Assembly: GCF_020165495.1 (NCBI RefSeq)
Contig: NZ_JAIUIE010000001.1
Span: 930,001 to 994,000, forward strand
DNA from: Mesorhizobium sp. BR1-1-16
GTDB lineage: Bacteria > Pseudomonadota > Alphaproteobacteria > Rhizobiales > Kaistiaceae
Direction of reading: 5' to 3'
DNA length: 64,000 bases
Shown here: positions 40,571 to 60,017 of the stretch, piece after piece
How the letters are laid out: the number at the start of each line of letters is the position of its first letter
How positions within the stretch are numbered: position 1 is the first letter of the stretch
Translations under genes and position numbers: made by a program
Notes under the pieces: model-generated
Seen by the model: only the letters and a program-made list of their open reading frames with translations
What the model was told of the DNA's origin: nothing
Databases searched by the model: none

Positions 40571-40580
40571 TGGAATACCA
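40571..40580. promoter_or_regulatory. GntR-type operator candidate upstream of xdhA (TGGAATACCA)
   Basis: Matches the TGGTATACCA-like element found before other genes of the 44-61 kb locus; the same 10-mer recurs at 57820, and on the other strand at 46544. It lies 67 bases after the dadA-like stop and 35 bases before the chosen xdhA start, so xdhAB probably has its own promoter. Confidence 0.6.
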
Positions 40581-40614
40581 AGGAAGTACCATAGGCATTC
40601 CGCGGGATATTCCC

Positions 40615-42078
40615 TTGCCGCCCATTCGTTCCCACATCCGTTTCTACCTCAACGATCGCCTCGTCACGCTGTCCGAAGTTGCACCGGATCGGACCTTGCT
40701 CGACTTCCTGCGCCTCGACAGGGTCATGCGGGGAACGAAGGAAGGGTGCGCAGAGGGTGATTGCGGCGCCTGCACCGTGCTGGTCGGGCGGCTCGATGCG
40801 TCCGGATTGATCTATGAGAGCATCAATGCGTGCATCCGTCTGGTCGGCTCGCTGGATGGCTGTCATGTCGTGACCGTCGAGCATCTGGGGCGCACCGACG
40901 GGACGCTGCATCCGGTGCAGCAGGCCATGGTCGACTATCATGGGAGCCAGTGCGGCTTTTGCACGCCCGGGTTCGTGATGTCGCTCTATGGGCTCTGGCT
41001 GACCAATCCAGAACCTTCATTGCCGGAAATCGAAAAGGCGCTGCAAGGCAATCTCTGCCGCTGCACGGGCTATGCGCCCATCGTGCGGGCAGCTGGCGCG
41101 ATTTCCAACTATGGCGAAGCCGCTGCCGATGCGCTCGAGGTCGAACGCAAGACCATGCGCGACAGGCTGCAGGCCCTGCGGGACGGGCATCGGGTCACCG
41201 TGTCTTCCCCGAGGGGGCCGTTCATCATTCCGGCCGATGTCGATGATCTCGCGACTATCCGGCAGGAAATGCCGGATGCCACGCTCATCGCCGGATCGAC
41301 GGATGTCGGCTTGTGGGTGACCAAGTTCATGCGCGACATCGCGCCGGTCATTTTCATACAAGGGCTGATGGACGAAATCACGGTCGATGACGGCGTCATC
41401 CGCATTGGCGCCGGCGTCAGCTACAGCCGCTCGTTCGCCACGATCGCGGAGCACATCCCGCAACTCGTTCCACTCTGGGATCGCATTGGCGGCGGGCAAG
41501 TGCGCAATATGGGCACGATCGGCGGCAATATAGCCAATGGCTCGCCGATCGGCGACACGCCGCCGCCTCTCATCGCGCTCGGCGCAGAACTCACGCTGCG
41601 TAGGGGCAGTACGCGGCGAACGATAAGGCTCGAGGACTTCTTCATCGCCTATGGCCGGCAAGATCTGGTGAAAGGCGAGTTCATCGAGAGCATCGCCGTT
41701 CCCATTCCGCCGCCCGACGTTTTCTTCGCGGCCTACAAGATCAGCAAACGGCGTGACGAGGACATCACAGCCGTGCTCGGCGCCTTCCAGGTGCATGTCG
41801 AGGGCGGTATCGTCCGCGATGCTGTCATCGCTTATGGCGGCATGGCAGCAACGCCCAAACGGGCTCGGGCCGTCGAAGCCGCGCTGATCGGTGCGCCCTG
41901 GACAATCACGGCGATCGAGGCTGCCTTGCCTGCCTTTGAAGAGGACTTCCAGCCTCTGTCGGATTGGCGCGCATCGGCTGAATACCGAATGCTGGTCGCG
42001 AAGAACCTCCTGTCGCGCTTCTTTCTCGAAATGCACGGTGAGCCCGAAGTCAGCATCCAGCGCCACGAGGTCGCCTGA
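40615..42078 (+). CDS. xdhA: xanthine dehydrogenase-type small subunit (2Fe-2S and FAD domains)
   Basis: Electron-transfer subunit of a molybdenum hydroxylase, 487 residues. The plant-ferredoxin-type cluster uses Cys 45, 50, 53 and 73 (GCAEGDCGACTV). The second cluster uses Cys 113, 116, 148 and 150 (QCGFCTPG, NLCRCTGYAPIV). The FAD domain begins near 205 with LIAGSTDVGLWVTK and has GGQVRNMGTIGGNIANGSP. The fused 2Fe-2S/FAD layout is that of bacterial XdhA. I prefer the TTG at 40615 (GGGA 7 bases upstream, downstream of the operator-like site); a TTG at 40501 would overlap the previous gene. Confidence 0.92.
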   Translation: MPPIRSHIRFYLNDRLVTLSEVAPDRTLLDFLRLDRVMRGTKEGCAEGDCGACTVLVGRLDASGLIYESINACIRLVGSLDGCHVVTVEHLGRTDGTLHPVQQAMVDYHGSQCGFCTPGFVMSLYGLWLTNPEPSLPEIEKALQGNLCRCTGYAPIVRAAGAISNYGEAAADALEVERKTMRDRLQALRDGHRVTVSSPRGPFIIPADVDDLATIRQEMPDATLIAGSTDVGLWVTKFMRDIAPVIFIQGLMDEITVDDGVIRIGAGVSYSRSFATIAEHIPQLVPLWDRIGGGQVRNMGTIGGNIANGSPIGDTPPPLIALGAELTLRRGSTRRTIRLEDFFIAYGRQDLVKGEFIESIAVPIPPPDVFFAAYKISKRRDEDITAVLGAFQVHVEGGIVRDAVIAYGGMAATPKRARAVEAALIGAPWTITAIEAALPAFEEDFQPLSDWRASAEYRMLVAKNLLSRFFLEMHGEPEVSIQRHEVA

Positions 42079-44414
42079 TGGACACGCTCGTCGAACGCAA
42101 GTCGATCGTCGGTGGCATGAGCGCGCCTCACCGGCATGATTCCGGCCACAAGCACGTCGCCGGAAGTGCCGACTACATCGACGACATGGTCGAGCCTGCC
42201 GGCACGCTGCACGCCTATCTCGGGCTCTCGACCATTGCCCATGGCGATATCGTCGCAATGGATCTCGATGCCGTCCGTAGCGCGCCTGACGTCGTGGGCG
42301 TGCTGACCTCCGATGATATTCCGGGCGAGGGGGACATCAGCCCATCGCACAAGGATGACGAGCCGGTCTTTGCCGCGCACAAGGTCACCTTCTCGGGTCA
42401 GCCTCTCTTTGTCGTCATCGGTGAGACCCGTGATGCCGCCCGTCGCGCTGCCCGGCTCGCCAAGGTCACCTATCGCGAATTGCCTCCAGCGCTCGACGTC
42501 GCTGCGGCCCGCAATGCTGGCGGTAAACTGGTCACGCCCGGCCTGACGCTGGAGCGAGGCGATGTCGCCTCATCCTTGGCCGATTCGCCGCGCCGCGTCT
42601 CCGGTTCGATCACGATCGGCGGACAGGAGCATTTCTACCTCGAAGGCCAGATCGCGCTCGCCATTCCCGGCGAGGACCACGACATGATCGTGCATTCGAG
42701 CGCGCAGCATCCCGATGAAGTTCAGCGCATGGTGGCGCGCGTGCTCGGCGTGCCGGCCCATGCTGTCACTGTCATGGTGCGGCGCATGGGCGGCGGCTTT
42801 GGCGGCAAGGAATCGCAGAGCAATCTCTTCGCCTGCGTCGTCGCCATCGCGGCACGGACGTTCAAGCGCGCGGTGAAGCTGCGTCCCGATCGCGATGACG
42901 ACATCAAGATGACGGGCAAGCGACATGATTTCGTCGTCGATTATGATGTCGGCTTCGACGAAGCGGGCCGGATCGAAGCTGTCGACGCCGTCTTTGCGGC
43001 GCGCTGCGGCCACTCGGCCGATCTCTCGCGCGGCGTCACCGATCGTGCGCTCACGCATTCCGACAACGCCTATTTCTATCCGGCCGTGCGCGTCCGCTCG
43101 CTGCCGCTTCGCACCAACACTGTCTCGAATACAGCGTTTCGTGGCTATGGCGGACCGCAGGGCATGCTGGCCTGCGAACGCTGGATCGAGGACATCGCCT
43201 ACACGCTTGGCAAGGATCCGCTCGAAATCCGCAAGGCGAATTTCTACGGCGAGACCGAGCGCAACGTCACGCCCTATCACCAGACGATCTCCGACAATAT
43301 CCTTGGGCGGCTGGTGGGCGAACTCGAGGCGAGCGCGGACTATGCGCGCCGCCGCGCCGAAATCCTCGCCTTTAACGAGAAATCACCGATCCTGAAGCGC
43401 GGCATTGCGCTGATACCGCTCAAGTTCGGCATCAGCTTCACCATGCTGGCGCTCAACCAGGCCGGAGCGCTTGTCCATGTCTATCGCGACGGTTCGGTCT
43501 ATCTGAACCATGGCGGGACGGAGATGGGGCAGGGGCTTCACACTAAGATTGCGCAGGTCGTGGCCGACGTCTTCCAGATCGACCTCGATCATGTGAAGGT
43601 TTCGGCGACGTCGACGGACAAGGTCCCGAATGCCTCCTCGACAGCCGCATCCAGCGGCTCTGACCTCAACGGCATGGCGGCCGAAAACGCGGCGCAGCAG
43701 ATCCGCGACCGGCTCATCGCATTCGCCGCGGAGAAATACGGCGTTGCTCCCGGAACCGTCCTGTTCGAGCCGAATGCAGTGGTCGTTGGCGACAAGCGCT
43801 TTTCATGGGCCCAGTTTGCAGAGCAGGCCTATCTCGGCCGTGTCCAGCTCTCGGCCGCCGGCTTCTACAAGACGCCCGGCATCTCCTGGAACCGCGACGC
43901 CGGCAAGGGCCATCCGTTCCTCTATTTCGCCTATGGCGCATCGTGCTCGGAAGTCACCGTCGATACGCTGACCGGCGAATACATGGTCGACCGCGTCGAT
44001 ATCCTCCACGACGTCGGCCGCTCGCTCAATCCCGCGATCGATATCGGTCAGATCGAGGGCGGCTTCATCCAGGGCATGGGCTGGCTCACGACCGAGGAAC
44101 TGTGGTGGGACGCCAAGGGCCAACTGCGCACCCATGCACCGTCGACCTACAAGATCCCCGTCGTTTCCGATGTGCCGAAGGTTTTCAATGTCAGCCTCGC
44201 GGAGTGGTCGGAGAACCACGCGCCAACGATCGGGCGCTCGAAGGCCGTCGGCGAACCGCCCTTCATGCTGGCGCTCTCGGTGTTCGAGGCGCTGGGCATG
44301 GCAGCCGCGAGCGTCGCCGGCTATCGGATTGCGCCGCGCATGGACGCCCCGGCGACGCCCGAGCGTGTCCTGATGACAATCGAACGCCTGAAGCGGGCTG
44401 ATCTCGGCGCCTGA
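42078..44414 (+). CDS. xdhB: xanthine dehydrogenase-type molybdopterin-binding large subunit
   Basis: Catalytic molybdenum subunit of 778 residues, standard for XdhB. The N-terminal DSGHKHVAGSADYIDD is normal. The molybdopterin site shows GGGFGGKESQSN (active-site Glu), NTAFRGYGGPQGM near 355, and GEPPFMLALSVFEAL with the general-base Glu near 730. These match purine-hydroxylating xanthine dehydrogenases better than CO or aldehyde dehydrogenases. The ATG shares a base with the xdhA TGA (TGATG). No XdhC insertion chaperone gene is in the window. The true substrate may be a related N-heterocycle. Confidence 0.93.
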   Translation: MDTLVERKSIVGGMSAPHRHDSGHKHVAGSADYIDDMVEPAGTLHAYLGLSTIAHGDIVAMDLDAVRSAPDVVGVLTSDDIPGEGDISPSHKDDEPVFAAHKVTFSGQPLFVVIGETRDAARRAARLAKVTYRELPPALDVAAARNAGGKLVTPGLTLERGDVASSLADSPRRVSGSITIGGQEHFYLEGQIALAIPGEDHDMIVHSSAQHPDEVQRMVARVLGVPAHAVTVMVRRMGGGFGGKESQSNLFACVVAIAARTFKRAVKLRPDRDDDIKMTGKRHDFVVDYDVGFDEAGRIEAVDAVFAARCGHSADLSRGVTDRALTHSDNAYFYPAVRVRSLPLRTNTVSNTAFRGYGGPQGMLACERWIEDIAYTLGKDPLEIRKANFYGETERNVTPYHQTISDNILGRLVGELEASADYARRRAEILAFNEKSPILKRGIALIPLKFGISFTMLALNQAGALVHVYRDGSVYLNHGGTEMGQGLHTKIAQVVADVFQIDLDHVKVSATSTDKVPNASSTAASSGSDLNGMAAENAAQQIRDRLIAFAAEKYGVAPGTVLFEPNAVVVGDKRFSWAQFAEQAYLGRVQLSAAGFYKTPGISWNRDAGKGHPFLYFAYGASCSEVTVDTLTGEYMVDRVDILHDVGRSLNPAIDIGQIEGGFIQGMGWLTTEELWWDAKGQLRTHAPSTYKIPVVSDVPKVFNVSLAEWSENHAPTIGRSKAVGEPPFMLALSVFEALGMAAASVAGYRIAPRMDAPATPERVLMTIERLKRADLGA

Positions 44415-44420: not shown

Positions 44421-45008
44421 TTACCAGCCGAGCGGCCGGCCGGCCTCGTCCTGGAGCACGCAGCCCGCCGGCGGCACGTTGGTGTCGCTGATTGTCGCGA
44501 GCAGTGCGTTATCAACTGCCGTGGCGTCGTCGATGGCCACGACGAGGCAGTCGATGCCGAGCGGCTGCCATTCGACCGACATCGACTTCCAAAGCGCATG
44601 GGCGGCCGCGCGGAACGGCCGCTCCAGATAGCTGCCCGCCGGATCGGGAGCCGTCATCGTTGCGGCGCTGCGGGTCATGAGAACCAGCTTGCCGCGCCCG
44701 TCGGAGCCGGCGAGGGCGGATTTGTGCCGATTGGCAAGCCAGAACGGCTTGAAAGCCAGCATGGACAATCCGGCCTCGAACGCGCTCCGCTTGAGCTTAG
44801 CCGCGCTGCCGCCAGGAGCGGTGAACGCATCGGCGAAAATCAGGATATCGATGGGTTCCTTGGCAAGGCGTGTGGCCTCCACCTCAAGCTCGCTGTCGAT
44901 GTTCGAACCGGTCACCCTTGCGCCGGCGTTCCGATAGAGGCCGGCCAGCGCCGCGCCGATCGGCGTCGCGATACCGACGATCACGACATGCAGCGGCGCT
45001 CTCACCAC
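44421..45008 (-). CDS. degenerate short SDR-like protein
   Basis: A 195-residue protein with a Rossmann-like start (VVIVGIATPIGAALAGLY), but the normal TGxxxGxG motif reads GIATPIGAA. The DILIFADAFTAPGG segment replaces the NNAG motif, and no YxxxK pair is present in the expected place (SYLERPFRAAA). It therefore looks like a divergent or non-catalytic SDR, perhaps a partner of the SDR encoded just upstream. Start is one of two adjacent GTG codons (45008 or 45005) overlapping the stop of that gene. It belongs to the leftward GntR operon. Confidence 0.72.
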   Translation of the reverse strand: MVRAPLHVVIVGIATPIGAALAGLYRNAGARVTGSNIDSELEVEATRLAKEPIDILIFADAFTAPGGSAAKLKRSAFEAGLSMLAFKPFWLANRHKSALAGSDGRGKLVLMTRSAATMTAPDPAGSYLERPFRAAAHALWKSMSVEWQPLGIDCLVVAIDDATAVDNALLATISDTNVPPAGCVLQDEAGRPLGW

Positions 45009-45682
45009 GGTACGTCCTTCCCGTCAAAGCCGATGCAACGGCCGGTATCAGCCAGGGCAAGCTGTTCGATGACGCGAACCATGCCGGCGACGCTGACATC
45101 GACATCCAGGCCGCGATCATTGTGATCGGTCATGTCAGTCTTCACGAAGCCCGGACGCAGCAGCGCGCAGGTGATCGCGTCGACACGCCATTCATCGGCC
45201 AGCGAACGCCACATGGCATTGAGGGCGGTCTTTGAGGCGCGATAGCAATATTGCGTGCCCCAATTGTTGGATGAGATCGAACTCATCAGGCTGGACATGC
45301 CGAGTGCGAGCCGCCGCTCGCCCGCGAGGAGGTTAGGCTTCAGCGCCGCGACCAGCAGCACGGCGCCCAGCGTATTGGTGTCCATCACGCGAACCATCTC
45401 GGCCCATGTCACGGCCTCCATTGGCATGGACTGATCGCCGGAAATTCCGGCGTTGGCGAGCACCGCATCGAGCGGGGTGCTTCCAAGCTTCGCTGCCAGC
45501 GCCGCGATGGAGCGGTCGTCCGTGATGTCGAGGATGAAGGGCTCGGCGCCAAGCTCGGCGAGGGCCGCGCAGCCCGCCTGATCCCTCGCTGTCGCCAGCA
45601 CGCGCCAGCCTTTTTCAAGCAGTTGCCGAACGAATTCGCGACCAATGCCGCGGCTGGCGCCGGCGATGAGAATGGAACTCAA
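45002..45682 (-). CDS. SDR-family oxidoreductase
   Basis: Compact classical SDR of 226 residues. The cofactor motif is AGASRGIG near residue 6, with LANAGIS near 75. The catalytic Ser is in MSSLMSS near 130 and YRASK is near 145. It resembles the CsgA-type/C-factor-like SDR group. The TTG at 45682 follows AAAGG; upstream in-frame codons would overlap the GntR gene. It lies 37 bases after the GntR gene and overlaps the start of the degenerate SDR gene, so the three form one operon under the operator-like sites at 46439-46460. Confidence 0.85.
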   Translation of the reverse strand: MSSILIAGASRGIGREFVRQLLEKGWRVLATARDQAGCAALAELGAEPFILDITDDRSIAALAAKLGSTPLDAVLANAGISGDQSMPMEAVTWAEMVRVMDTNTLGAVLLVAALKPNLLAGERRLALGMSSLMSSISSNNWGTQYCYRASKTALNAMWRSLADEWRVDAITCALLRPGFVKTDMTDHNDRGLDVDVSVAGMVRVIEQLALADTGRCIGFDGKDVPW

Positions 45683-45719
45683 TACGGATTGCCTTTCGCC
45701 GTGTTCCAGGGCCGGCCGG

Positions 45720-46415
45720 TCACGACCGCCGTCTTCCCAGAATGAAATCGATGATCGCATCGCGCACATTGTCGAGATGCTGCCCCATCAATTGGCGCGA
45801 CACTTCAGGATCATTGCCGGTGACGGCGTGCAGCAGGTCCAGATGCTCCGAGGCGCCTGGAAGGAGGCGATGGGGAATGCGCGAGGTGTTGAAGATGTGG
45901 GTTCGTCGCCGCAGATCGCGGATTGCGGAGACGACCATAGGGTTGCCGGTGGCCTCGGCAATGGTTCCATGAACCATCTCGTCGACAGCCCAGTGATGGG
46001 CGGGCGTGATGACCGTCACGCGGCGCAATTCGTCTATGGCGACCTCGATGGCCTTGCACTGTTCGACAGTAATTCGTCCGGTCGCACGAGCGGCTGCCTC
46101 TACTTCGATGATGCGCCTTAAGTCAAGCAAGCTCACATAGCTTTCGACGCTCACATCCGACACGACGAGAACGCGTCCGTGACGCCGCGAGACGAGCGAT
46201 TCAGCTTCCAGGCGGCCAAGCGCTTCACGGATGGGGGTGCGTGAGATCGCCAGCATTTCGGCCAGCCGTCGCTCCTGAAGGACGGCGCCTGCCTGGAGTT
46301 TGCCGGAGAGCATCAATTCAAGGATCTGCGTATAGGCGAACTCGCTGAGGCTGACCTCTGCGCTGCCCGCAGTCGAACGCTCGCGCGCCTCCTGAACGGG
46401 TATGACCAGATCCAT
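45720..46415 (-). CDS. GntR-family regulator, FadR subfamily with FCD domain (copy 1)
   Basis: A 231-residue regulator. The winged helix-turn-helix is near residues 25-90 (LQERRLAEMLAISRTPIREAL). The C-terminal FCD domain has the metal/ligand His-Asp pattern (DEMVHGTIAEATGN, EHLDLLHAV, MGQHLDNVRD). The ATG at 46415 follows GCGAGGGGC; a TTG at 46460 would place the coding sequence over the operator-like site. It is divergent from the nitrilase-family gene at 46602, exactly as the second GntR gene is from its nitrilase at 57635. Autoregulation is likely. Confidence 0.92.
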   Translation of the reverse strand: MDLVIPVQEARERSTAGSAEVSLSEFAYTQILELMLSGKLQAGAVLQERRLAEMLAISRTPIREALGRLEAESLVSRRHGRVLVVSDVSVESYVSLLDLRRIIEVEAAARATGRITVEQCKAIEVAIDELRRVTVITPAHHWAVDEMVHGTIAEATGNPMVVSAIRDLRRRTHIFNTSRIPHRLLPGASEHLDLLHAVTGNDPEVSRQLMGQHLDNVRDAIIDFILGRRRS

Positions 46416-46438: not shown

Positions 46439-46460
46439 TGGTAGACCATTGATATACCAA
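46439..46460. promoter_or_regulatory. two adjacent GntR-type operator candidates upstream of GntR copy 1
   Basis: TGGTAGACCA (46439-46448) is directly followed by TTGATATACCAA (46449-46460), the latter one base from a perfect TTGGTATACCAA palindrome. They lie 24-45 bases upstream of the GntR start, fitting an autoregulatory site. Confidence 0.65.
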
Positions 46461-46539
46461 CTGTCAATGATCCCGCTCTGGGGCATCTAACCGGAAATCG
46501 TTCGCCCGCATCGGCGTCGCGCTTGACGGCGCGAGTGTG

Positions 46540-46557
46540 CCATTGGTATTCCAATGG
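46540..46557. promoter_or_regulatory. GntR-type operator candidate CCATTGGTATTCCAATGG
   Basis: An 18-base palindrome with exact 7-base arms (CCATTGG and CCAATGG) around TATT. It lies 44 bases before the nitrilase-family gene and would control the rightward catabolic operon. Confidence 0.72.
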
Positions 46558-46601
46558 AACACCTAAAACAAACCCGTGAACGGGCACTGGCGGAGAACAG
46601 A

Positions 46602-47633
46602 ATGGCCATTCAACCTTGGCGGGCGACCTGCATTCAGATGGGGAGCGTCGTCGCGAGCAATGCGACCAGCCGTCGGGAGGCGTGGGCCATCATCGATGGC
46701 AACCTCGCCAACGCGATCGCCATGATCGAAGCCGCCTGTGCTGGTCCGACTCCGCCACGCCTCGTTGTGCTGCCGGAATTCGCATTCCAGGGGCCGCCGC
46801 GCGCGACGCCAGTGCGTGACTGGATCGAACGGGCCTGCGCCACGATCCCGGGTCCGATCACGGATCGTTTAGCCGACGTCGCCCGACGGTTGGACATCTA
46901 CATCGCCGGCAATCATTTCGAAGTCGATCCGCTGTGGCCCGACCGCTATTTCAATTCTTCGTTTCTGCTCGACCCGAAGGGCGAGGTGATCCTGCGCTAC
47001 CGGCGCATCAACACGGCGAGCTGGACGTCGCCGCATGACATCCTCGATCAGTATCGCGCGGCCTATGGCGAGGACGGCATTTTTCCGGTGGCCGATACGG
47101 AACTCGGACGCCTCGCGATCTTCCCTTGTGGCGAGATCAGCGTCCCCGAGCTTTCGCGCGTGCTGATGCTGCGCGGCGCCGAAGTGCTGCTGCATCCGTC
47201 GAACGAGCCGATCGGGCCCAAGGCCGAGGCGGCCAAGATCTGCCGGGCGGCCGAGAACATGTGCTACCTCATCAGCACCAACGTCGCGGGCGGCATCGGC
47301 TTCTCGCTCTCCGGTGACGAAAAAGGTGGTCACTCACAGATCATCGATTTCAACGGCAACTATCTGGCCTTCGATGGCGAGGCGGCCGAGAGCGTCTCGG
47401 TCACGGCGATGATCGATATCGAAGCGCTTCAGACCGCGCGCCGCGATACTGGCATGGGCAACGGACTGCTCCGCCAGCGTCTCGAAATATACAAGTCGCA
47501 TTATGCGTCGGCCGAACTCTATCCCGCCAACGCGCTGGCCGAAGCGCCGATCGAGACGGTCGCAGACCTCGTGCCGGTGCATGAACGCGCGATCGCCAAT
47601 GCCGTAGCCGCCGGCGTCCTGCGCGCCGACTGA
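46602..47633 (+). CDS. nitrilase/carbon-nitrogen hydrolase superfamily protein (copy 1)
   Basis: A 343-residue member of the nitrilase superfamily, whose members hydrolyse amides, carbamoyl groups or nitriles. Glu 59 (LPEFAFQG) and the nucleophile Cys 176 (IFPCGEISVPE) are in place. The catalytic Lys, normally in a YRKxH segment, is replaced by Arg 135 (LRYRRINT). The paralogue at 56595 has the same three residues at the same positions. GGAGAAC precedes the ATG. It is divergent from GntR copy 1 and begins the operon containing the amidohydrolase (36 bases on). Activity on an amide released in the pathway is inferred. Confidence 0.88.
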   Translation: MAIQPWRATCIQMGSVVASNATSRREAWAIIDGNLANAIAMIEAACAGPTPPRLVVLPEFAFQGPPRATPVRDWIERACATIPGPITDRLADVARRLDIYIAGNHFEVDPLWPDRYFNSSFLLDPKGEVILRYRRINTASWTSPHDILDQYRAAYGEDGIFPVADTELGRLAIFPCGEISVPELSRVLMLRGAEVLLHPSNEPIGPKAEAAKICRAAENMCYLISTNVAGGIGFSLSGDEKGGHSQIIDFNGNYLAFDGEAAESVSVTAMIDIEALQTARRDTGMGNGLLRQRLEIYKSHYASAELYPANALAEAPIETVADLVPVHERAIANAVAAGVLRAD

Positions 47634-47669
47634 CATTTTCTCGATGTCGGCCGGATGGGAGCCCGCCAC

Positions 47670-49244: not shown

Positions 49245-49546
49245 CGCGACGCGTGACCTGCTGCGTTTGGTAGTTCGCCCCTGATCCGAACGCACCGCGA
49301 CGGTGGCCACCGCTCAATATGAAGGCGGACCAGCTCGTAATCCGGGCCCATTGCCGTGGCCGAAAATCAAAATGTATCAATCACTTGCCGGCATGTATTC
49401 AGGTCTTGGCATCTGCCAACGATCCGAGCGTTATGATCAAAAAATAGTCACATAATGTTCTTGCTCAATATAGCGACAAAGCAGATTGACTCAAGATATT
49501 CCCGTGGCATACCATCTGAATGCCAACACTGAGCGGTAGGACGGGA
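49245..49546. other. 302-base leader of the importer operon
   Basis: An unusually AT-rich stretch (about 49360-49515) in a GC-rich locus. TTGACT at 49486-49491 is a possible -35 element, and the GntR-type site at 49505 would overlap the -10 region. No small gene is supported. Confidence 0.5.
49505..49514. promoter_or_regulatory. GntR-type operator candidate TGGCATACCA before importer genes
   Basis: One base from TGGTATACCA. It lies 33 bases upstream of the binding-protein start and 13 bases downstream of a possible TTGACT -35 element, where bound repressor would block RNA polymerase. Confidence 0.6.
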
Positions 49547-50558: not shown

Positions 50559-50604
50559 AATTTGGGCACCGCCGGCTCCTCTGGTGGTGCCCAAATTGCT
50601 TTTC
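50559..50604 (+). terminator. strong hairpin with T-tract between importer and SDR genes
   Basis: AATTTGGGCACC (50559-50570) and GGTGCCCAAATT (50586-50597) form an exact 12-bp stem around 15 bases, followed by GCTTTTC. It begins 7 bases after the binding-protein stop. It may terminate part of the transcripts so that the binding protein is made in excess over the membrane subunits, a common arrangement in importer operons. Confidence 0.75.
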
Positions 50605-50640
50605 TATCGCCCTTGCGGCGACGATCAGGAATTCGACGAC

Positions 50641-51429: not shown

Positions 51430-51503
51430 GCCGCATCACGGACGGAAGAGATCAGGCCCTCGGGGCAACAGAGGAGACCGGCCGAAAAGGTCGTCCGCAC
51501 CAC

Positions 51504-52322: not shown

Positions 52323-52325
52323 GCC

Positions 52326-53144
52326 ATGTCGATCGCCGCCGAAACGCCAGTTGTGCCTAAGGTCAACGTGCTCAATCGCCTGCTCGCCATGGTGCCGCCG
52401 GCGTTGTGGTCCGTGATCGTCTTGATCATCGTATGGGAGCTGTCGGTCAAGATCGGCGAGATTCCCAACTATATCCTTCCAGCACCCTCCGCCATTCTGG
52501 CGGAATTCGGCGCCTATTGGCATCGGCTGTTGCCCAACGCGATGGTGACGGGTGGAGAGGTCGTGTTCGGCTTCCTCTGCGCGGTCCTGATCGGCGTGCC
52601 GCTTTCGGTCTTCATCGCCTATTCGCGCTTCATGGAGCGATCCGTCTATCCGCTGATCGTGGCCTCGCAGACCGTGCCGAAAGTGGCGATTGCGCCTCTG
52701 TTGCTCACCTGGTTCGGCTACGGTCTCGCGCCGAAGATCGTGATCGTCGTGCTGCTCTCGTTTTTTCCGATCGTCATCAATTCCGTGATGGGGCTGAAGT
52801 CCGCACCGCGCGAAATGGTCTATCTCGCGCGCTCCATGGGCGCCTCGGGCTGGCAGCAGTTCTGGAAGTTCCGCCTGCCGCAGGCACTCCCGAGCATGTT
52901 TGCCGGCTTCAAGCTCGCGACCGTGTTGTCGGTGATCGGCGCAATCGTCGCCGAGTTCATCGGCGCCGATAAAGGCCTCGGCTATCTGATCCTGGTCGCG
53001 GGCTCGAGCTTCAACATCACGCGCCAGTTCGCCGCCATCATCCTCATCACCATCATCGGCGTCGTCTTCTTCATGGTGATCGAGCGCCTCGAGCGCGTCG
53101 TCATTCCGTGGCGCCACCGCGGCCTGTCCGAAACGGACGCCTGA
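52326..53144 (+). CDS. ABC importer permease (NitT/TauT family)
   Basis: Permease of 272 residues with six predicted helices and the SsuC/TauC-type plan: an N-terminal helix near 28-45, and the EAA-like loop ARSMGASGWQQFWKFRLP near 175-192. The AEFIGADKGLGYLILVAG segment near 210 is characteristic. GGGAGGAG precedes the ATG. It completes the importer with the ATPase (3-base gap) and the binding protein. Confidence 0.94.
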   Translation: MSIAAETPVVPKVNVLNRLLAMVPPALWSVIVLIIVWELSVKIGEIPNYILPAPSAILAEFGAYWHRLLPNAMVTGGEVVFGFLCAVLIGVPLSVFIAYSRFMERSVYPLIVASQTVPKVAIAPLLLTWFGYGLAPKIVIVVLLSFFPIVINSVMGLKSAPREMVYLARSMGASGWQQFWKFRLPQALPSMFAGFKLATVLSVIGAIVAEFIGADKGLGYLILVAGSSFNITRQFAAIILITIIGVVFFMVIERLERVVIPWRHRGLSETDA

Positions 53145-53189
53145 TCAGGGCATCGCTTCGTCCGCATATCGAAATTCTGGGAGAACACA

Positions 53190-54134
53190 GTGAATAACAA
53201 GCTCGACGAGAGCGCGAGCGGCGTCTTCGTCATCGCGGTTACGCCCTTCACCGACAATGGTCGGATCGACGAGGCGAGCATCGACCGCGTGGTGGAGTTC
53301 TATCTCGAAAAAGGCGTCGCGGGCATCACGGTCCTCGGCATGATGGGGGAAGCGCACAAGCTGACCTCCGACGAAAGCCGCCTGGTCCTCGACCGTTACA
53401 TGAAGCGCGTGAATGGCAGGGTGCCGGTGGTGGTCGGTGTTTCGGCCGCTGGCACCGATCCGCTGGTGCAGTTCGCGGATGAGGCGATGGGGCAGGGCGC
53501 GGCCGGCGTCATGCTCGCTCCAGTGCCGACGGTTCGCACCGAAGAGCAGATCTACGGTTATTTCAGCGACGTGCTCGATCGCCTCGGCGATGCGCCGGTC
53601 GTGTTGCAGGATTTTCCGCTCGTCACCAATGTCAACATCTCGGTTGGGACGATCCGGCGCATCGTCGATCGCTATCCCAATGTCGTGATGTTCAAGCACG
53701 AGGATTGGCCGGGCCATAACAAGCTCAGCCGTCTCATCGGCGCCGAGGGGCGGAAGATCAGCATTCTCGTTGGCAATGGCGGTCTCTACCTGCCGCAGGA
53801 GCTGCGGCGCGGCGCGCACGGCGCCATGACGGGCTTCGCCTATCCGGAGATGCTGGTTGATGTCTGCGCCCATTTCGCGCGTGGCGAGGTTGAGCAGGGC
53901 GAGGATCTCTACGACATCTATCTGCCGCTGCTGCGGCACGAGGCCATGCCGGTCATCGGCATCGCGCTGCGCAAGGAAATGCTGCGCCGGCGCGGCGCCA
54001 TCGCCTCGGCCCATGTGCGTTCGCCCGGCCCCCGCCTGAACGCGGAAGACCATCGCGAACTCGACTGGCTGAACGGACGCCTGCTGCGGCGGCTGGCCCA
54101 GAGCGGCGCATCGCTGGCGCTGGCGGCTCCGTAA
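53190..54134 (+). CDS. dihydrodipicolinate synthase/N-acetylneuraminate lyase-family protein
   Basis: A 314-residue class I aldolase-type (beta/alpha)8 protein. The Schiff-base Lys is Lys 169 (VVMFKHEDW). The pyruvate-carboxylate loop is MMGEAHKLT near 51-59, differing from the usual GTTGE. The proton-relay Tyr of the YNxP motif is replaced: LQDFPLV has Gln 140-Asp 141. So it is unlikely to be DapA; a catabolic 2-oxo acid aldolase or hydratase-lyase is more plausible. The start is a GTG with GGGAGA upstream. It is the last gene of the rightward operon, 45 bases after the permease. Confidence 0.87.
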   Translation: MNNKLDESASGVFVIAVTPFTDNGRIDEASIDRVVEFYLEKGVAGITVLGMMGEAHKLTSDESRLVLDRYMKRVNGRVPVVVGVSAAGTDPLVQFADEAMGQGAAGVMLAPVPTVRTEEQIYGYFSDVLDRLGDAPVVLQDFPLVTNVNISVGTIRRIVDRYPNVVMFKHEDWPGHNKLSRLIGAEGRKISILVGNGGLYLPQELRRGAHGAMTGFAYPEMLVDVCAHFARGEVEQGEDLYDIYLPLLRHEAMPVIGIALRKEMLRRRGAIASAHVRSPGPRLNAEDHRELDWLNGRLLRRLAQSGASLALAAP

Positions 54135-54222: not shown

Positions 54223-55251
54223 CTAGAGGTCGAGGATCAAACGATCCGACTTGGCGCCCGAACAGCAGATCATGATCAGCTTGTTCGAGGCGCGCTCGCG
54301 CGCCGACAACACGTTATCCTTGTGGTCGGGGACGCCTTCGATCACACGGGTCTCGCAGGTGCCGCAGACGCCTTCGCGGCAGGAATGCGCGACCCGCACG
54401 CCGGCTTCCATCAGGACATCCATGATCGTCTTGCCGGCCGGAACGGTGAATTCCTTCTGGCTGCGTTTGAGCACGATCTTGAATTCGCCCGTCGGCTTGG
54501 CGGCCGTGCCGACGAAATGCTCGATATGAACCTGATCATCCGGACGCCCGGCCGCGGCGGCCTTGAACGCGGCAATCATCGGGGTCGGGCCGCAGCAATA
54601 GAGATGCGCATCGGCCGGTAGCTCGGCGACGCGGGCCACCACATCCATGACGCTGCCGGCCTCGGTGTCGGCATGCAGATGCACGCGACCGGGTTCGATT
54701 GTCTCGAGGGCTGCCAGTTGCGCCAGGAAGGCCGCATTGGCGCGATCGCGCACGGCGTAGAAGAGACGCCAGCGTCTGCCGATGGCTTCAAGACGACGGA
54801 TCATGGCGAGGATCGGCGTGATGCCGATGCCGCCGGCGAAGAACACGCTCTCTTGCGCTGTCTCGACCAGAGGGAAGCTGTTGCGTGGTGGCATGACCGG
54901 GAGAATCTCGCCAACCCGGAGTGTCTCGCAGAGATAGGCGGAGCCGCCTCGGCTTGCCGCGTCGCGGTTGACGGCCACGACGTAGCGGTCGCCGTCTTCG
55001 TCCGCATTGATCAGCGAATAGCTGCGCGAGAGCTCGCCCGGCAAGGCGAGATCGATATGCGCGCCGGCGCTGAAGGGCGGCAGGGTGGAGCCGTCAGGCG
55101 CGCGCAGTTCGATAGAGCGGATCGTCTCGGCTTCGAAGCGGATCGCTTCGACGCGGAGGCGGAGCGGGCCAGGCTCCGCCGCGCTCGACGGCCTTTGAAC
55201 GGGATCCGACGCGAGTCCCGCGTCGGATCGATCTCGAAGAACGGTCGTCAT
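54223..55251 (-). CDS. phthalate dioxygenase reductase-type flavoprotein (FMN/NAD/2Fe-2S)
   Basis: Electron-transfer partner of a Rieske oxygenase, 342 residues. The FMN domain covers about 30-130 (RSYSLINA for flavin binding, then APPISA-type hydrophobic contacts). The NAD domain follows (FAGGIGITPILAMI near 140). The C-terminal plant-type ferredoxin has CREGVCGTCETRV and a last Cys in ICCSGAKS. This FMN-NAD-2Fe-2S order matches phthalate dioxygenase reductase and VanB. The ATG overlaps the oxygenase stop by ATGA. Confidence 0.94.
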   Translation of the reverse strand: MTTVLRDRSDAGLASDPVQRPSSAAEPGPLRLRVEAIRFEAETIRSIELRAPDGSTLPPFSAGAHIDLALPGELSRSYSLINADEDGDRYVVAVNRDAASRGGSAYLCETLRVGEILPVMPPRNSFPLVETAQESVFFAGGIGITPILAMIRRLEAIGRRWRLFYAVRDRANAAFLAQLAALETIEPGRVHLHADTEAGSVMDVVARVAELPADAHLYCCGPTPMIAAFKAAAAGRPDDQVHIEHFVGTAAKPTGEFKIVLKRSQKEFTVPAGKTIMDVLMEAGVRVAHSCREGVCGTCETRVIEGVPDHKDNVLSARERASNKLIMICCSGAKSDRLILDL

Positions 55252-56576
55252 TCGGCGGCAAAGAGCTTCGGCCGGTGGCCCTTGATGGCGGCCATCTTCT
55301 CTTCATAGCCATCAAGCCAATCCGTACCATAAGGCACGACGATGTCACCGCCGCGGGCGTCACGGCAGAGTTCTGGCCGATCAACGACGTCAGGCAGCTT
55401 GCCGGTCTCGGCATATTCCTTGGCGGCGTCGAGCATGACGCGACGCGTCAGGATGACCATGCGGTCGCTGGCGGCCAGATGCTCCATGGTGCGATCGACG
55501 ATCGGACCCATGCTTTCCTGGATCGCCTGGTCCTGCAGAGGAACTCCGACGATGCCGGTGTAGCTATCGCCATTGCGCTGCCATTCCCGATCGATGCCGT
55601 AGTCGTTGGAGGCATCCTTGACGGGACGCCAGCGGCCCTTCCAGTCGGTGGTCGTCGGCAGGTATTCGAGCGGGCGGGCAAGGCCGCCGACCAGTGTGCC
55701 GTCCTTGTATTTGAGGTTCTTCCTGCGTCCATTGATGCGGCCGAGATCGATGTTGAAGATCATCGTGCTCTCGTCGTCGATCGGGACCCAGGCGTTGACG
55801 GTGACGTTGTCGTCCATGAGCCCCGACGGATAGGTCACCCAGATCGGGAAGATATAGCTCGCGAAACGATGATGCTCCGTGCCCTCATAGGCATTGCGCT
55901 GGGCGGAATACATCGTGCCGAACGGCATGACGGAAACGTTGATCTTCGGCGCCTTTTCCGTGACCGTGAAGGCTTCCGGATCGCTCAGGTCGAGCTTTTC
56001 GCCATCGATGCCGCCGACATGCAGGAAGCCGAGATGCGAGGTGTCGACGTCGCCCTCGAGCGCCTGCATGTAGTTGCAGTCGCGATGCGTGAGGGCGATG
56101 TTTGCGTCATGACCCTCGCCCATGATCGCCTCGATCTCGGGCAGCGGCGGCGGGTTCTCCTGGCGCTCGCCCATATAGGCGAAGACGAGCCCGCCCGATT
56201 CCTGCACGCGGTAGGCAATGGCCGGCGTGCCGGCTGGATATTTGGACTTGTCCTCGAGATTGGGCTGGTCGAGGCACTTGCCCGTCACGTCGAATTTCCA
56301 GCCATGATAGGCGCAGCGTATGCCGCCCAGTTCGTTGCGGCCAAAAAAGAGCGATGCGCAGCGATGCGGGCAGCGGTGATCGAACACGCCGACACGTCCC
56401 TCGCTATCGCGGAAGGCAACAAGCTTTTCGCCGAGGATCATCAGGCGAACCGGGTCGCCATCGGCCTTGAGTTCGGACGAGAGACAGACGGGCATCCAGA
56501 ACTGACGGAAGAAGTTGCCCATCAGAGTGCCTTTGCCGACGCGGCAAAGCTGTTCGTTTTCTTCGGCTGTGATCAT
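55248..56576 (-). CDS. Rieske non-heme iron oxygenase, phthalate-4,5-dioxygenase-like
   Basis: Oxygenase component of 442 residues. The Rieske cluster ligands are Cys 69, His 71, Cys 88 and His 91 (CPHRCASLF and CAYHGWKF). The mononuclear iron site has Asp 178 with His 181 and His 186 (GDVDTSHLGFLHVG). The C-terminal part to about 430 is of the phthalate-dioxygenase (alpha-only) type, which works with the FMN-type reductase encoded next to it. AGGAGC precedes the ATG. Such enzymes hydroxylate or demethylate aromatic and N-heterocyclic rings; the substrate is unknown. Confidence 0.94.
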   Translation of the reverse strand: MITAEENEQLCRVGKGTLMGNFFRQFWMPVCLSSELKADGDPVRLMILGEKLVAFRDSEGRVGVFDHRCPHRCASLFFGRNELGGIRCAYHGWKFDVTGKCLDQPNLEDKSKYPAGTPAIAYRVQESGGLVFAYMGERQENPPPLPEIEAIMGEGHDANIALTHRDCNYMQALEGDVDTSHLGFLHVGGIDGEKLDLSDPEAFTVTEKAPKINVSVMPFGTMYSAQRNAYEGTEHHRFASYIFPIWVTYPSGLMDDNVTVNAWVPIDDESTMIFNIDLGRINGRRKNLKYKDGTLVGGLARPLEYLPTTTDWKGRWRPVKDASNDYGIDREWQRNGDSYTGIVGVPLQDQAIQESMGPIVDRTMEHLAASDRMVILTRRVMLDAAKEYAETGKLPDVVDRPELCRDARGGDIVVPYGTDWLDGYEEKMAAIKGHRPKLFAAE

Positions 56577-56594
56577 CGTGGTGGGCTCCTGGGA

Positions 56595-57635
56595 TCAGTT
56601 CGTCAGCGGCTGCAGCACGCGCAGCTTTTCGAGATTGGCGCGGGCGATCTCGACGCTTTCGCGCGTCTGTACGGTGTCGGTCATCGGTGACGCCAGAAAA
56701 TGGTTGGCCGGGTAGAATTCGGCGCTGGCGTAGTAGGGGCGGTACATCTCGAACCGCGCCCGCAGCAGGGGGTTGTGCATGCCGGTATCGGCGCGACGGT
56801 CGGTGCGCAGCGCTTCGATATCAATCATGCCGGTGACGCCCACACCCTCGGACGCATCTTCCTGGAATGCGATCGTATTGCCGTGATGGTCGAGAATGTG
56901 CGAGCGGCCGCCCATGATCGTGTTGTCGGGCGAGAAGCCGATCGGGCCGGCGACGTTGGCGCTGACCAGGTAGCACATGTTCTCGGCTGTGCGCGCGACC
57001 TTGGCGGCCTCCTGGCCGACCGTATATTTCGAGTTGGTCGGATGCAGGATCACCTCGGCGCCCTGCATCATGAAAACGCGCGAGACCTCCGGAATATTGA
57101 TCTCGCCGCAGGGGATGACGGCGAGCCGGCCGAGCTCGGTTTCCACGACGGGGAATACTTGTTCCTGCTGCGTCGCGGCCATGTAGTCCGACATGAAATC
57201 ATGCGGCGAGGGGAAGGCGGCCGTATTGATCCGGCGATAGTTGAGGATCACCTCGCCGTTGCGGTCAATTAGGAAAGACGAGTTGAAATAGCGTCCCGGC
57301 CATTCGGCCGGCGCCTCGAACATGTTGCCGGCAATGTAGATCTTCTCGCGCCGCGCCAGTTCCTGCAGCGGCTCGGTCAGCGGTCCGGGAATGGTCGAGC
57401 AGGCGCGATCAATCCATTCGCGCACATGCATCTGCAGCGGAGGCCCCTGCAGGGCAAACTCGGGAAATACAACGAGATCGGGCTTCAACGACGAGGCGCA
57501 GGCCTCTGTGATCAGGCTGATCAGGCGATCGAGGTTCCGGAGGATGAGCGCCTTCGCGGCAGCGTCATCGGGGGCCTGCGTGGCGCGCTCGCTGCGCATC
57601 TGAATGCTGGTTGCGCGCCAGGGTTTTATCGGCAT
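56595..57635 (-). CDS. nitrilase/carbon-nitrogen hydrolase superfamily protein (copy 2)
   Basis: A 346-residue paralogue of the protein at 46602, collinear along its whole length. Glu 59 (FPEFALQG), Arg 135 in place of the catalytic Lys (LNYRRINT) and Cys 176 (VIPCGEINIPE) are at the same positions. GAGG precedes the ATG. It is divergent from GntR copy 2 across 267 bases and leads the Rieske oxygenase/reductase operon (18-base gap). It probably hydrolyses an amide in the same or a parallel branch as copy 1. Confidence 0.88.
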   Translation of the reverse strand: MPIKPWRATSIQMRSERATQAPDDAAAKALILRNLDRLISLITEACASSLKPDLVVFPEFALQGPPLQMHVREWIDRACSTIPGPLTEPLQELARREKIYIAGNMFEAPAEWPGRYFNSSFLIDRNGEVILNYRRINTAAFPSPHDFMSDYMAATQQEQVFPVVETELGRLAVIPCGEINIPEVSRVFMMQGAEVILHPTNSKYTVGQEAAKVARTAENMCYLVSANVAGPIGFSPDNTIMGGRSHILDHHGNTIAFQEDASEGVGVTGMIDIEALRTDRRADTGMHNPLLRARFEMYRPYYASAEFYPANHFLASPMTDTVQTRESVEIARANLEKLRVLQPLTN

Positions 57636-57674
57636 GGGACGGCCTCTATGCAAGTGGCGGATTGGTTGCACGCC

Positions 57675-57688
57675 AGTGGTATACCACT
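57675..57688. promoter_or_regulatory. perfect 14-bp palindrome AGTGGTATACCACT, GntR-type operator candidate
   Basis: Exact palindrome containing TGGTATACCA, 40 bases upstream of the nitrilase copy 2 start. It is the best match to the motif shared across the locus. A partial second copy AGGTATCGACCA follows at 57689-57700. Confidence 0.78.
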
Positions 57689-57819: not shown

Positions 57820-57829
57820 TGGAATACCA
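57820..57829. promoter_or_regulatory. GntR-type operator candidate TGGAATACCA before GntR copy 2
   Basis: Same sequence as the xdhA-upstream site at 40571. It lies 74 bases upstream of the TTG start of GntR copy 2, fitting autoregulation. Confidence 0.6.
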
Positions 57830-57902
57830 AAGCAATTCCCAGTGTCTTCCATTGGCAGACAGTGGGATATATGACTGCCTCGCAAAGCTGGGAGTTGGGC
57901 GC

Positions 57903-58583
57903 TTGAGTGAAATCGATGTACTGGATCTGGACGTGGGGTCCGCGGACCGGCCCAACCTCACGGAACAGGTGTATGAGCAACTGATCGATCTTTTGATCCG
58001 TGGCGACTTAAGGCCAGGCGACGTGATTACAGAGCGGCGCATGGCCGAAAAGCTCAACGCCTCGCGCACGCCGATCCGTGAAGCGTTGGGCCGACTCGAG
58101 GCGGAAGGGCTGGTCTACAAGCAGCCCAATCGCGGCGTCACCGTCAGCCCGTTCTCGACCGAAGTCTTTGTCGAGATCCTGAACGTGCGGCAGTTGCTCG
58201 AGGCGGAAGCGGCGAGGCTCGCCGCTGGTCGCATCCCGCCGGAACGTATGGCGATCATGCGCGCCGCGCTCGAAAAGATCGCCGGGAATCCCAAGCCGAC
58301 CCTGAGCGACATCTGGGAGGTCGACGACCTGCTGCATGGCGAGATCGCCGATACGGCCGGCAATGTGCTGATGGCCTCGATGATACGCGACCTTCGCCGC
58401 CGGACTCACGTCTTCAATGCCTCGCGCAAATCCGTGACACCGAGCTTCGGCGTCGAGGACAATACGCTGCTGCTCGATGCGATCGAGAGCGGCGATGGCG
58501 AGCGCGCACGGGCCGCCATGGCCAGGCACATCGAAACCGTGAAGCTGGCGCTGATCGACCGTTTGTCCGGCGCTATTCGCTGA
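57903..58583 (+). CDS. GntR-family regulator, FadR subfamily with FCD domain (copy 2)
   Basis: A 226-residue paralogue of the protein at 45720. The helix-turn-helix is near residues 20-85 (ITERRMAEKLNASRTPIREAL, then GLVYKQPNRGVTV). The FCD domain has DDLLHGEIADTAGN and a conserved DLRRRTHVFNASR shared with copy 1. The TTG at 57903 follows GGGAGTTG; upstream in-frame codons lack a ribosome site. It is divergent from nitrilase copy 2 and convergent with the hydantoinase-like gene (4-base gap). It probably regulates itself, the Rieske operon and the hydantoinase region. Confidence 0.92.
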   Translation: MSEIDVLDLDVGSADRPNLTEQVYEQLIDLLIRGDLRPGDVITERRMAEKLNASRTPIREALGRLEAEGLVYKQPNRGVTVSPFSTEVFVEILNVRQLLEAEAARLAAGRIPPERMAIMRAALEKIAGNPKPTLSDIWEVDDLLHGEIADTAGNVLMASMIRDLRRRTHVFNASRKSVTPSFGVEDNTLLLDAIESGDGERARAAMARHIETVKLALIDRLSGAIR

Positions 58584-58587: not shown

Positions 58588-59940
58588 TCAGCGCTCCGGA
58601 CGGGCCACGAACCGGCCATGTCCGGCCGGCGCCGTGATGGCGGCGCCATCCCAGACCTGCCGGCCGCGCACGAAGGTCGCGGCTGGCGTCGCCGCGAACT
58701 CCACGCCGTCATAGGCGCTCCAGCCGGGGCCGTCGGCGTTGCGCTTTGAATCGTAGACGCCAGGCGTCGGATCGAGCACGGCGATGTCGGCATCGAAGCC
58801 CGGCGCGAGCTTGCCCTTGCGGGGCAGGCCGAAGAACGTCGCCACCTTGTCGCTGAGGAGATCCGCCGTCATCCGCGCCGCTGCGTCGCCGCCGCTGCGG
58901 GCTGATGCGCCGGTGAAGAAGGCCGGCAGTAGCGTTTCGAGCCCCGGCATGCCGGCCGCGACGTCGAAGATCGAGGCATTCTGCTTGCGATCGAGCGGCC
59001 AGGCGCTGTGGTCTGACGACACGAACGTACAACCGCCTGCTTCCAACACCTGCCAGAGCGCGTCCTTCTGGCCCGAGCGAATGGGTGGATTGACCTTGAG
59101 CAGCCCGCCGAGGCGCGGCGTGTCATGCGCCGCGTCGAAGAGCAGATAGTGCACGCACATCTCGGCGGACGCGTTCACGCCGCGATCGCGATAGGCGCGC
59201 ACGAGGTCGAAGCCCTCGGCGATCGAGATGTGCACGATGTGGAGATGCGAGCCAGTCGCGGCGCCGAGTTCGAGGAAATTCGCAGTCGCGGTCAGTTCAG
59301 CGACTTCGGGCCGGCTTGGGCTGTGGTCAGACGGGCTCGTCCGACCTTCGGCGCGGAACGTCGCGGCGAGGCTTCGAACGATCTCCTGGTCTTCATTATG
59401 CAATCCCACTGGCAGGCCGGTGCCTCCGAGCGTCTCCAGAAGCCAATGCGTTGCGGCATTGCCGATGCGAGGAAAGCGGTGGGGGTGCGCTTCGAAGGAG
59501 GAGATCTTGAACGCGCAGACCCCGCCTGCGATCAGCTCGGCGATGTGCTCCCGATTGGGGCTCGTCGGTACCGTGCCGTAAAGAGCGACGTCGCAGACGG
59601 CGAGCCGTTCGACCGCATCGATCTTTTCGGACAGAAGCGCGCCGGTCGTGACGGGATCGGGATCGTCATACGGCATATCGACAATGGTCGTGACGCCGCC
59701 CATTGCCGCCGCCCGGCTGGTCGGCCCCATTCCGGCGAACCCGATCTGGCTGCCGGCATGGGTCTGCCCGTCGATGACGCCGGGGAGCAGATAGGCCGAG
59801 CCATAGTCCCGGCTTGTTGACGCCGTCGGCGCGGCACCCGTCCCGATCGCGGCGATCAGACCGTCGGAAACGGCGATCCAGCCGCCCTCGACGATGCCGG
59901 CGGGAGCCACCACACGCCCCTTCACTACGAGATCGTACAT
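58588..59940 (-). CDS. hydantoinase/allantoinase-like cyclic amidohydrolase, first metal His replaced
   Basis: A 450-residue amidohydrolase of the dihydropyrimidinase/allantoinase/dihydroorotase group, which open cyclic amide rings. The carbamylated Lys is Lys 145 (AFKISSFE). His 181 (LHNEDQE), His 237 (HIVHISI) and Asp 310 (SSDHSAW) are in place. The first HxH motif reads Gln 59-Thr-His 61 (IDGQTHAGS), so the first metal ligand is changed. The ATG at 59940 gives the usual start MYDLVVKGRVV. It is divergent from the NIPSNAP/RidA genes across 133 bases with an operator-like site. Confidence 0.88.
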   Translation of the reverse strand: MYDLVVKGRVVAPAGIVEGGWIAVSDGLIAAIGTGAAPTASTSRDYGSAYLLPGVIDGQTHAGSQIGFAGMGPTSRAAAMGGVTTIVDMPYDDPDPVTTGALLSEKIDAVERLAVCDVALYGTVPTSPNREHIAELIAGGVCAFKISSFEAHPHRFPRIGNAATHWLLETLGGTGLPVGLHNEDQEIVRSLAATFRAEGRTSPSDHSPSRPEVAELTATANFLELGAATGSHLHIVHISIAEGFDLVRAYRDRGVNASAEMCVHYLLFDAAHDTPRLGGLLKVNPPIRSGQKDALWQVLEAGGCTFVSSDHSAWPLDRKQNASIFDVAAGMPGLETLLPAFFTGASARSGGDAAARMTADLLSDKVATFFGLPRKGKLAPGFDADIAVLDPTPGVYDSKRNADGPGWSAYDGVEFAATPAATFVRGRQVWDGAAITAPAGHGRFVARPER

Positions 59941-60007
59941 CCTGTCTGCCCTCCGCATGCGTGGCGCCAGATGCAGAACGAAATTCGGCGTGCACTTGGC
60001 ATTCCCA

Positions 60008-60017
60008 TGGTGTACCA
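60008..60017. promoter_or_regulatory. GntR-type operator candidate TGGTGTACCA
   Basis: One base from TGGTATACCA, between the divergent hydantoinase-like (68 bases away) and NIPSNAP (57 bases away) genes. It is placed to control both directions. Confidence 0.58.

Follow-up and report, generated by a model that had tools for sequence, protein, structure and literature searches.

Atu1419 of Agrobacterium fabrum, a VanR-group FCD-GntR regulator with a six-helix effector domain, represses catabolic genes and is associated with the 10-bp palindrome ATGTATACAT; it contacts DNA via Ser44, Arg45, Thr46, and Arg49, its palindromes are 190 bp apart (or 109 bp if a degenerate one is counted), and looping has been proposed (PMC7797058). 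NanR of E. coli, also an FCD-GntR repressor, occupies the close repeats of its (GGTATA)3 operator as cooperative dimers (PMC8012715). Operators of the UxuR/GntR/PrpR type have 2-nt spacing, and weaker boxes 7–12 nt from the site center were reported for 13 orthologous groups of the FadR subfamily by Suvorova et al. 2015 (PMC4494728). In Corynebacterium glutamicum, the paralogous regulators GntR1 and GntR2, described as functionally equivalent, share one regulon. Here, we analyze a 64,000-nucleotide stretch of the Mesorhizobium sp. BR1-1-16 genome (contig NZ_JAIUIE010000001.1, positions 930,001 to 994,000 of the forward strand; hereafter, the window), in which seven predicted operators very likely serve one catabolic regulon and are bound by one or both of two VanR-group FCD-GntR proteins encoded in the same gene cluster.

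The operators of this cluster share the GTATAC center with the Atu1419 palindrome, and the DNA-contacting residues of Atu1419 correspond to an S-R-T-x-x-R motif in both cluster regulators, which we denoted GntR1 and GntR2. Unlike the distant Atu1419 palindromes, those of the cluster lie in tandem in an 11-bp register, an arrangement not found in the accessible text of that report. The close spacing resembles that of NanR, but the NanR repeats are direct half-site repeats rather than tandem palindromes, and the cooperativity of NanR requires a 32-residue N-terminal extension (PMC8012715). The GT-N2-AC spacing is that of UxuR/GntR/PrpR-type operators, for which a tandem layout was not found in the parts of the source available; compared with the additional half-sites reported there, the copies in the cluster keep a constant 11-bp register, and the partners can approach full palindromes (PMC4494728). 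The C. glutamicum pair is described as functionally equivalent, whereas the two cluster regulators differ in a predicted metal-site residue of the effector pocket. Neither the regulon and its cluster nor the 10-mer TGGTATACCA was found among the papers listed by searches of open literature, in which no report combined four of GntR, hydantoinase, Rieske, nitrilase, and xanthine dehydrogenase. The regulon is well supported and new; its kind of switch is already known, although the operators are laid out with unusual regularity.

Rare palindromes ahead of the cluster genes

All eight near-identical 10-mers listed in a first-pass annotation of the window (at 40571, 46439, 46450, 46544, 49505, 57677, 57820, and 60008) are present, one matching TGGTATACCA perfectly and seven with one mismatch. 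The sites at 46439 and 46450 are halves of one operator, so the eight sites amount to seven operators. The annotation had assigned the sites to an 11-bp form resembling TNGTNNNACNA, which does not hold: the cores are 10-bp GT-N2-AC sequences, that is, even palindromes with 2-nt instead of 3-nt spacing. They conform to the FadR-subfamily operator, a GT/AC palindrome with 2- or 3-nt spacing. The 10-mer also resembles UxuR sites, a likeness checked for the spacing class.

With at most one mismatch allowed, TGGTATACCA occurs at 23 places in the 5.2-Mb genome, 8 of them inside the 19.4-kb stretch 40571–60017, which makes up 0.4% of the genome; the remaining 5.18 Mb contain 15. The same pattern read backwards, used as a control, occurs at 61 places. 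The perfect 10-mer is found once in the genome, at 57677. The off-cluster rate predicts 0.056 sites for the 19.4-kb stretch, compared to the 8 found (Poisson P about 2e-15), and 1000 Markov-1 simulations of this stretch yielded a mean of 0.059 sites and a maximum of 2 (a smaller run of 100 simulations gave a mean of 0.01; the larger one is preferred). No 10-mer with at most one mismatch was detected in the remaining 44 kb of the window. The first-pass annotation had proposed such a genome scan and named equal frequency in coding DNA genome-wide as counter-evidence; by density, this is not observed.

The 15 off-cluster sites were inspected with about 2 kb of flanking sequence on each side. Mechanically called open reading frames (ORFs) of at least 100 amino acids overlap 14 of these sites but also 6 of the 8 cluster sites; because the two groups are not separated in this way, we dropped this coding/intergenic comparison. 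For ten of the 15, the surrounding ORF encodes a Pfam domain; the other five have no assignment. The cluster sites precede likely start codons by about 23–73 bases, in agreement with the intergenic placement and the distance of 24–75 bases reported in the annotation. These start codons were chosen by looking for purine-rich runs upstream and by comparison with orthologs; for xdhA and gntR2, the TTG codons proposed are uncertain. Four starts set by the ORF caller (46460, 46554, 49520, and 60018) lie in or abut operator sequence and are probably not real.

Operators are tandem arrays in an 11-bp register

The actual unit, which the first-pass annotation missed, consists of 10-mers repeated in tandem every 11 bp, or one helical turn. 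Each operator is a 21- to 32-bp array that consists of a strong 10-bp palindrome with the GT-N2-AC core and one or two weaker copies, with one spacer base between copies. Operator 1 (40571–40591, before xdhA) reads TGGAATACCA-a-GGAAGTACCA, with a weaker third copy at 40593–40602 (6/10); operator 2 (46439–46459, before gntR1), TGGTAGACCA-t-TGATATACCA, joins the 46439 and 46450 sites; operators 3 (46533–46564, before nitrilase 1) and 4 (49494–49525, before the importer binding protein) are triple arrays, GAGTGTGCCA-t-TGGTATTCCA-a-TGGAACACCT and AGATATTCCC-g-TGGCATACCA-t-CTGAATGCCA, respectively. Operator 5 (57666–57686, before the nitrilase 2/Rieske/reductase unit), TTGCACGCCA-g-TGGTATACCA, contains the only perfect 10-mer of the genome. 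Operator 6 (57820–57840, before gntR2), TGGAATACCA-a-AGCAATTCCC, has the weakest partner of the seven (5/10) and 6/10 copies at +22 and +33. Operator 7 (59997–60017), TGGCATTCCC-a-TGGTGTACCA, lies between the hydantoinase and NIPSNAP genes and is shared by them.

Within 60 bases of the sites, the only offsets averaging more than 4/10 matches are −11 and +11 (the 46439/46450 pair contributes to both averages). To keep the partner out of the choice of sites, the test set comprised all individual 10-mers with up to one mismatch in the conserved gene blocks of six genomes (n = 31). Of these 31 sites, 25 have an 11-bp partner scoring 6/10 or better, as do 13 of 18 if this genome and a relative, denoted G008, are left out; at the other offsets from 10 to 60, the average is 0.96 of the 31 sites with a partner and the maximum is 8. 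In controls, no such partner accompanies any of the 15 sites that this genome has outside the cluster, and 1 of 42 sites in 76 other loci has one. These loci are what remained of 80 kept from at least 590 relatives after four (L051, L052, L111, and L053) were pursued; sites were itemized in ten loci and counted in all 80. In a later test on three genomes found by their Rieske protein (G652, G705, and G645), 13 of 14 sites have a partner, and no site was detected in the 53.7 kb outside their blocks. Another site set included some sites chosen with the partner in the score, so the 31-site and 14-site tests are preferred; the ±22 registers are slightly raised in a set whose sites were partly chosen by partner.

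The control loci indicate that the phasing is not a general property of the 10-mer. Four of them, from Niallia (L057), Neobacillus (L068), Bisbaumannia (L081), and Bacillus (L100), contribute 27 of the 42 control sites; in these loci, the same 10-mer recurs 6–8 times per 20 kb near other FCD-GntR genes, 20 of the 27 sites lie outside ORFs of 150 amino acids, and none of the 27 has a partner. Thus, the 10-mer itself is probably also used by other GntR regulators, in regulons of their own, and the mark of the regulon described here is the 11-bp array rather than the 10-mer alone. A degenerate 21-base tandem pattern was tried for genome-wide searches and gave 29 forward matches, compared with 4 and 14 for the reversed control. 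Its top five matches, with one mismatch, are all cluster operators; from two mismatches on, they are mixed with sequences of the TGGAACACCAT...GATGCC type, and we therefore searched with the 10-mer alone and then checked for a copy 11 bp away.

Conservation of the operators in other genomes

Operators precede matching genes in all nine genomes found to have a Rieske-marked cluster, whole or partial (this one and eight others), that is, the operator is kept before orthologous genes elsewhere. In G008, where the aligned cluster is 86–89% identical at the nucleotide level, all seven operators are kept, and the three copies of operator 1 score 9/10, 7/10, and 7/10. The cluster of G015 is split over two contigs (L050 and L049), with operators on both: one stretch encodes the reductase, Rieske oxygenase, nitrilase 2, GntR2, hydantoinase, and NIPSNAP protein, and the other encodes GntR1, two SDR proteins, and XdhAB, with a weaker xdhA operator (8/10 and 7/10). 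In Rhizobium sp. S152, Pseudooceanicola sp. HF7, and Tropicimonas marinistellae, operators are found at the gntR2, nitrilase 1, nitrilase 2, importer, and NIPSNAP units; the block of Pseudooceanicola gave no match to the hydantoinase, and in Rhizobium and Tropicimonas, extra SDR, DHDPS, or transporter units are under operators as well. The layout in G705 is similar, that in G645 is shuffled with the operators persisting, and G652 has operators at the nitrilase 2, gntR2, and hydantoinase/NIPSNAP units. In whole-genome scans, 5 of 23 sites of G008 and 2 of 13 of G015 fall in the cluster, as do 6 of 32 in Rhizobium among the matches listed.

The proposal of the first-pass annotation that xdhAB and the gene set at 44–61 kb form a single regulon is supported by the genome-wide rarity of the sites and by the operators before matching genes in eight other genomes, as well as by their persistence in the split and rearranged clusters. 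An operator of its own precedes each of the two gntR genes. The Rieske marker is present in 1 of 385 genomes of the class (this one) and in 6 of 397 of the order, and no plasmid record contained the Rieske protein at 1e-150.

Tropicimonas additionally has further importer and SDR units under phased operators (L159:8900-12300), so its regulon has expanded differently. In the stretch examined of Stella vacuolata, a GntR1-like gene, the single regulator gene in that stretch, faces an amidohydrolase gene across a TGGGATGCCG-t-TGGTATACCA operator; no further cluster gene adjoins this pair there.

Predicted regulators and mode of action

The likely regulators are two VanR-group FCD-GntR paralogs with a common recognition helix. 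GntR1 (likely start 46415, reverse strand; GntR 58.2 and FCD 72.7 bits) and GntR2 (57852–58583, forward strand, with an uncertain TTG start and 57903 as an alternative; 69.1 and 82.4 bits) both combine an N-terminal GntR winged helix-turn-helix domain with a C-terminal FCD domain, their FCD and GntR scores lying above the Pfam cut-offs of 24.3 and 27, and the recognition helix reads SRTP[IV]REAL in all readable rows of both alignments. gntR2 is present in all nine cluster gene sets examined and gntR1 in seven; gntR1 was not seen in the cluster stretches of G652 and G645, which are the parts of those genomes searched for it. Six helices, as opposed to seven, characterize the effector domain of the VanR group (PMC7797058). 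A GntR2 model built from a six-sequence alignment (predicted local distance difference test score 74.9) has six long helices and one 4-residue helix in the effector domain, and the VanR-group assignment is based on this GntR2 model; its best Foldseek matches include PmiR, McbR, Atu1419, and TM0439, with TM-scores of about 0.5–0.6.

We matched the pocket residues by spacing to His134, His174, and His196 of TM0439; the metal-binding subgroup is defined by Asp (or Asn) and three His. In 6 of 6 orthologs, GntR1 retains the Asp and all three His, arranged as D-X3-H, a second His, and X21-H. In GntR2, Asn replaces the second His in 6 of 6 orthologs (G652, G705, and G645 left out), leaving the predicted pocket short of one metal-ligand histidine, and Pseudooceanicola GntR2 also lacks the pocket Asp.

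Before the importer genes, a promoter-like TTGACT-N18-TACCAT sequence has its −10 element inside the operator core, and among 46 gene-oriented operators, a −35-like hexamer (TTGACA-like, at least 5/6) begins 18–21 bases before the core at 15, compared to 11 at all other offsets together. The position of the core over the expected −10 element at some promoters suggests repression by occlusion as the simplest reading, with activation a conceivable alternative. Under the mechanism that we propose, one or both regulators would bind all seven operators as adjacent dimers, or as one tetramer, on the same face of the helix, given the shared 11-bp register of the copies; without inducer, the bound proteins would mask the −10 region and block transcription, and they would leave the DNA once a pathway compound occupied the FCD pocket. 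The scheme also implies autoregulation of both gntR genes.

Several observations weigh against parts of this scheme. Partners of at least 6/10 are missing at 6 of the 31 sites and 1 of the 14, and 46439 and 46450, as mutual partners, were counted twice among the 31. The −35 pattern is confined to the xdhA, gntR1, nitrilase 1, and importer units and one NIPSNAP unit, and is absent at the nitrilase 2, gntR2, and hydantoinase units and at some orthologs of the positive units; orthologs in this count are not independent, and promoter-like matches over the region are in no clear excess (7 versus 4.5, standard deviation 2.0). The importer unit of G652 has no operator. The partners are weak, and their best-kept positions are 3 and 8–9 rather than the whole 10-mer, so they may act partly as half-sites. 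It is possible, if somewhat doubtful, that they are accessory half-sites that broaden the footprint of one dimer and recruit no second one, much like the weaker adjacent half-sites 7–12 nt from the site center (PMC4494728). Near-complete partners (9/10 at gntR1 here and 8/10 at nitrilase 1 in G705) argue for a second dimer, as does the slight rise at ±22. That the palindromes cluster by chance has a negligible probability: when two mismatches are allowed in the window alone, the 11 sites found are only mildly unusual (4 of 100 shuffles reach 11), but this explanation is contradicted by the counts over the whole genome, the controls for phasing, and the operators found in eight other genomes.

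The identity of the binding protein is a separate matter. A serious contender, which we rate at somewhat below even chances, is that only one GntR protein is the operator-binding repressor, the other having different DNA targets or playing a lesser part; the universal presence of gntR2 across the nine sets, the lack of gntR1 in the stretches examined of G652 and G645, and the Stella stretch with its single regulator are compatible with this division, whereas the operators before both genes, the identical recognition helix, and the joint presence of both genes in seven of nine carriers from several genera speak for a shared role. Ownership of the palindromes by another regulator, such as the LysR protein at 61374–62279, is very improbable. 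Its gene adjoins the cluster, but no operator precedes it, and a tblastn search of the cluster blocks at 1e-15 revealed no close ortholog; the sole match, at 29%, lies outside the Rhizobium block. Binding by one or both GntR proteins is the preferred reading. An unlikely elaboration is that the paralogs, with the same recognition helix and differing pockets, share the phased operators as neighboring dimers or mixed assemblies; if so, each promoter would integrate two signals, for example, the substrate and a late intermediate.

Gene content of the predicted regulon and pathway

The predicted regulon comprises 18 genes between 40.6 and 60.7 kb, arranged in eight putative transcription units headed by the seven operators, one of which is shared. 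The units are xdhAB, encoding a molybdenum hydroxylase (40615–44414, forward; the suggested TTG start at 40615 is uncertain); gntR1 with two downstream SDR-type genes (44421–46415, reverse), the last of which (44421–45008) barely reaches the Pfam cut-off (27.1 versus 27 bits); nitrilase-family amidase 1 and a TRZ/ATZ-type amidohydrolase (46602–49244, forward); an NMT1-type binding protein, an SDR protein, an ABC ATPase, a permease, and a DHDPS-family protein (49547–54134, forward); nitrilase-family amidase 2, the Rieske oxygenase, and a ferredoxin-type reductase (54223–57635, reverse); gntR2; a hydantoinase resembling ErtD (58588–59940, reverse); and a NIPSNAP-family protein (60050–60688, forward). 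Most carriers have in common the Rieske oxygenase and reductase, nitrilase-family amidases, ErtD-like hydantoinase, and NIPSNAP protein, usually along with the importer. Because no phased site was found elsewhere in the window, the regulon appears to exclude both the gene for the D-amino-acid dehydrogenase (39251) and the LysR/MFS pair (61–63.6 kb). The MFS protein (62366–63571) scores 320.5 bits against the Cmx/CmrA chloramphenicol-efflux model, below the cut-off of 400. A hairpin at 50559–50597 (17-pair stem, 5-base loop, T-containing tail) lies where the SDR frame begins, behind the gene for the binding protein, and could be an attenuator or terminator within the importer operon.

XdhA (653.9 bits, cut-off 467; TIGR02963) and XdhB (1292.6 bits, cut-off 849.5; TIGR02965) score as xanthine dehydrogenase (XDH) equivalogs. 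The genome encodes a second XdhB, 59% identical, so the substrate of the cluster enzyme may differ. The link between xdhAB and the rest of the regulon stands for this genome, G008, and G015 and does not extend to Rhizobium, Pseudooceanicola, and Tropicimonas, where no operator precedes the XDH homologs that were examined (for Tropicimonas, one of two; the second, G047:C3, was left out). XdhAB thus looks like a lineage-specific addition to the regulon. We considered and rejected XDH of other carriers (G045, G047, and G044) as regulon members for this reason, along with two apparent operators: the 7+7 match of L142 falls within the xdhB match, and L143 has its 9/10 match several kb from the gene. 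Nor does an operator precede the additional XDH copy of G008 or that of G015 (in L144, a 9/10 match lies about 1.3 kb behind the G008 gene), and for the second XDH of this genome, the genome-wide 10-mer scan, with no closer look taken, gave no site on contig C27.

The hydantoinase is nearest to ErtD, the hydantoin-5-propionate amidohydrolase of ergothioneine utilization, but falls below the cut-off of that model (NF058538, 498 versus 600 bits), and is probably a related ring-opening enzyme with another substrate. The Rieske oxygenase (55248–56576) is 99% identical to its G008 ortholog and 76–90% identical to those of the other carriers, a high conservation that suggests that it fixes the pathway substrate; its solved relatives include a putative phthalate 4,5-dioxygenase (7fhr). 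Judging from these gene families, a nitrogen-containing ring might be imported and oxidized, then opened by the hydantoinase, with subsequent amide or carbamoyl hydrolysis.

The operator marks which genes of this uncharacterized pathway belong together, across families and unlinked loci, and so offers a handle on the substrate. The cluster is also a natural system for studying how one operator can serve two sensors and whether palindromes placed in helical phase give rise to cooperative repression.

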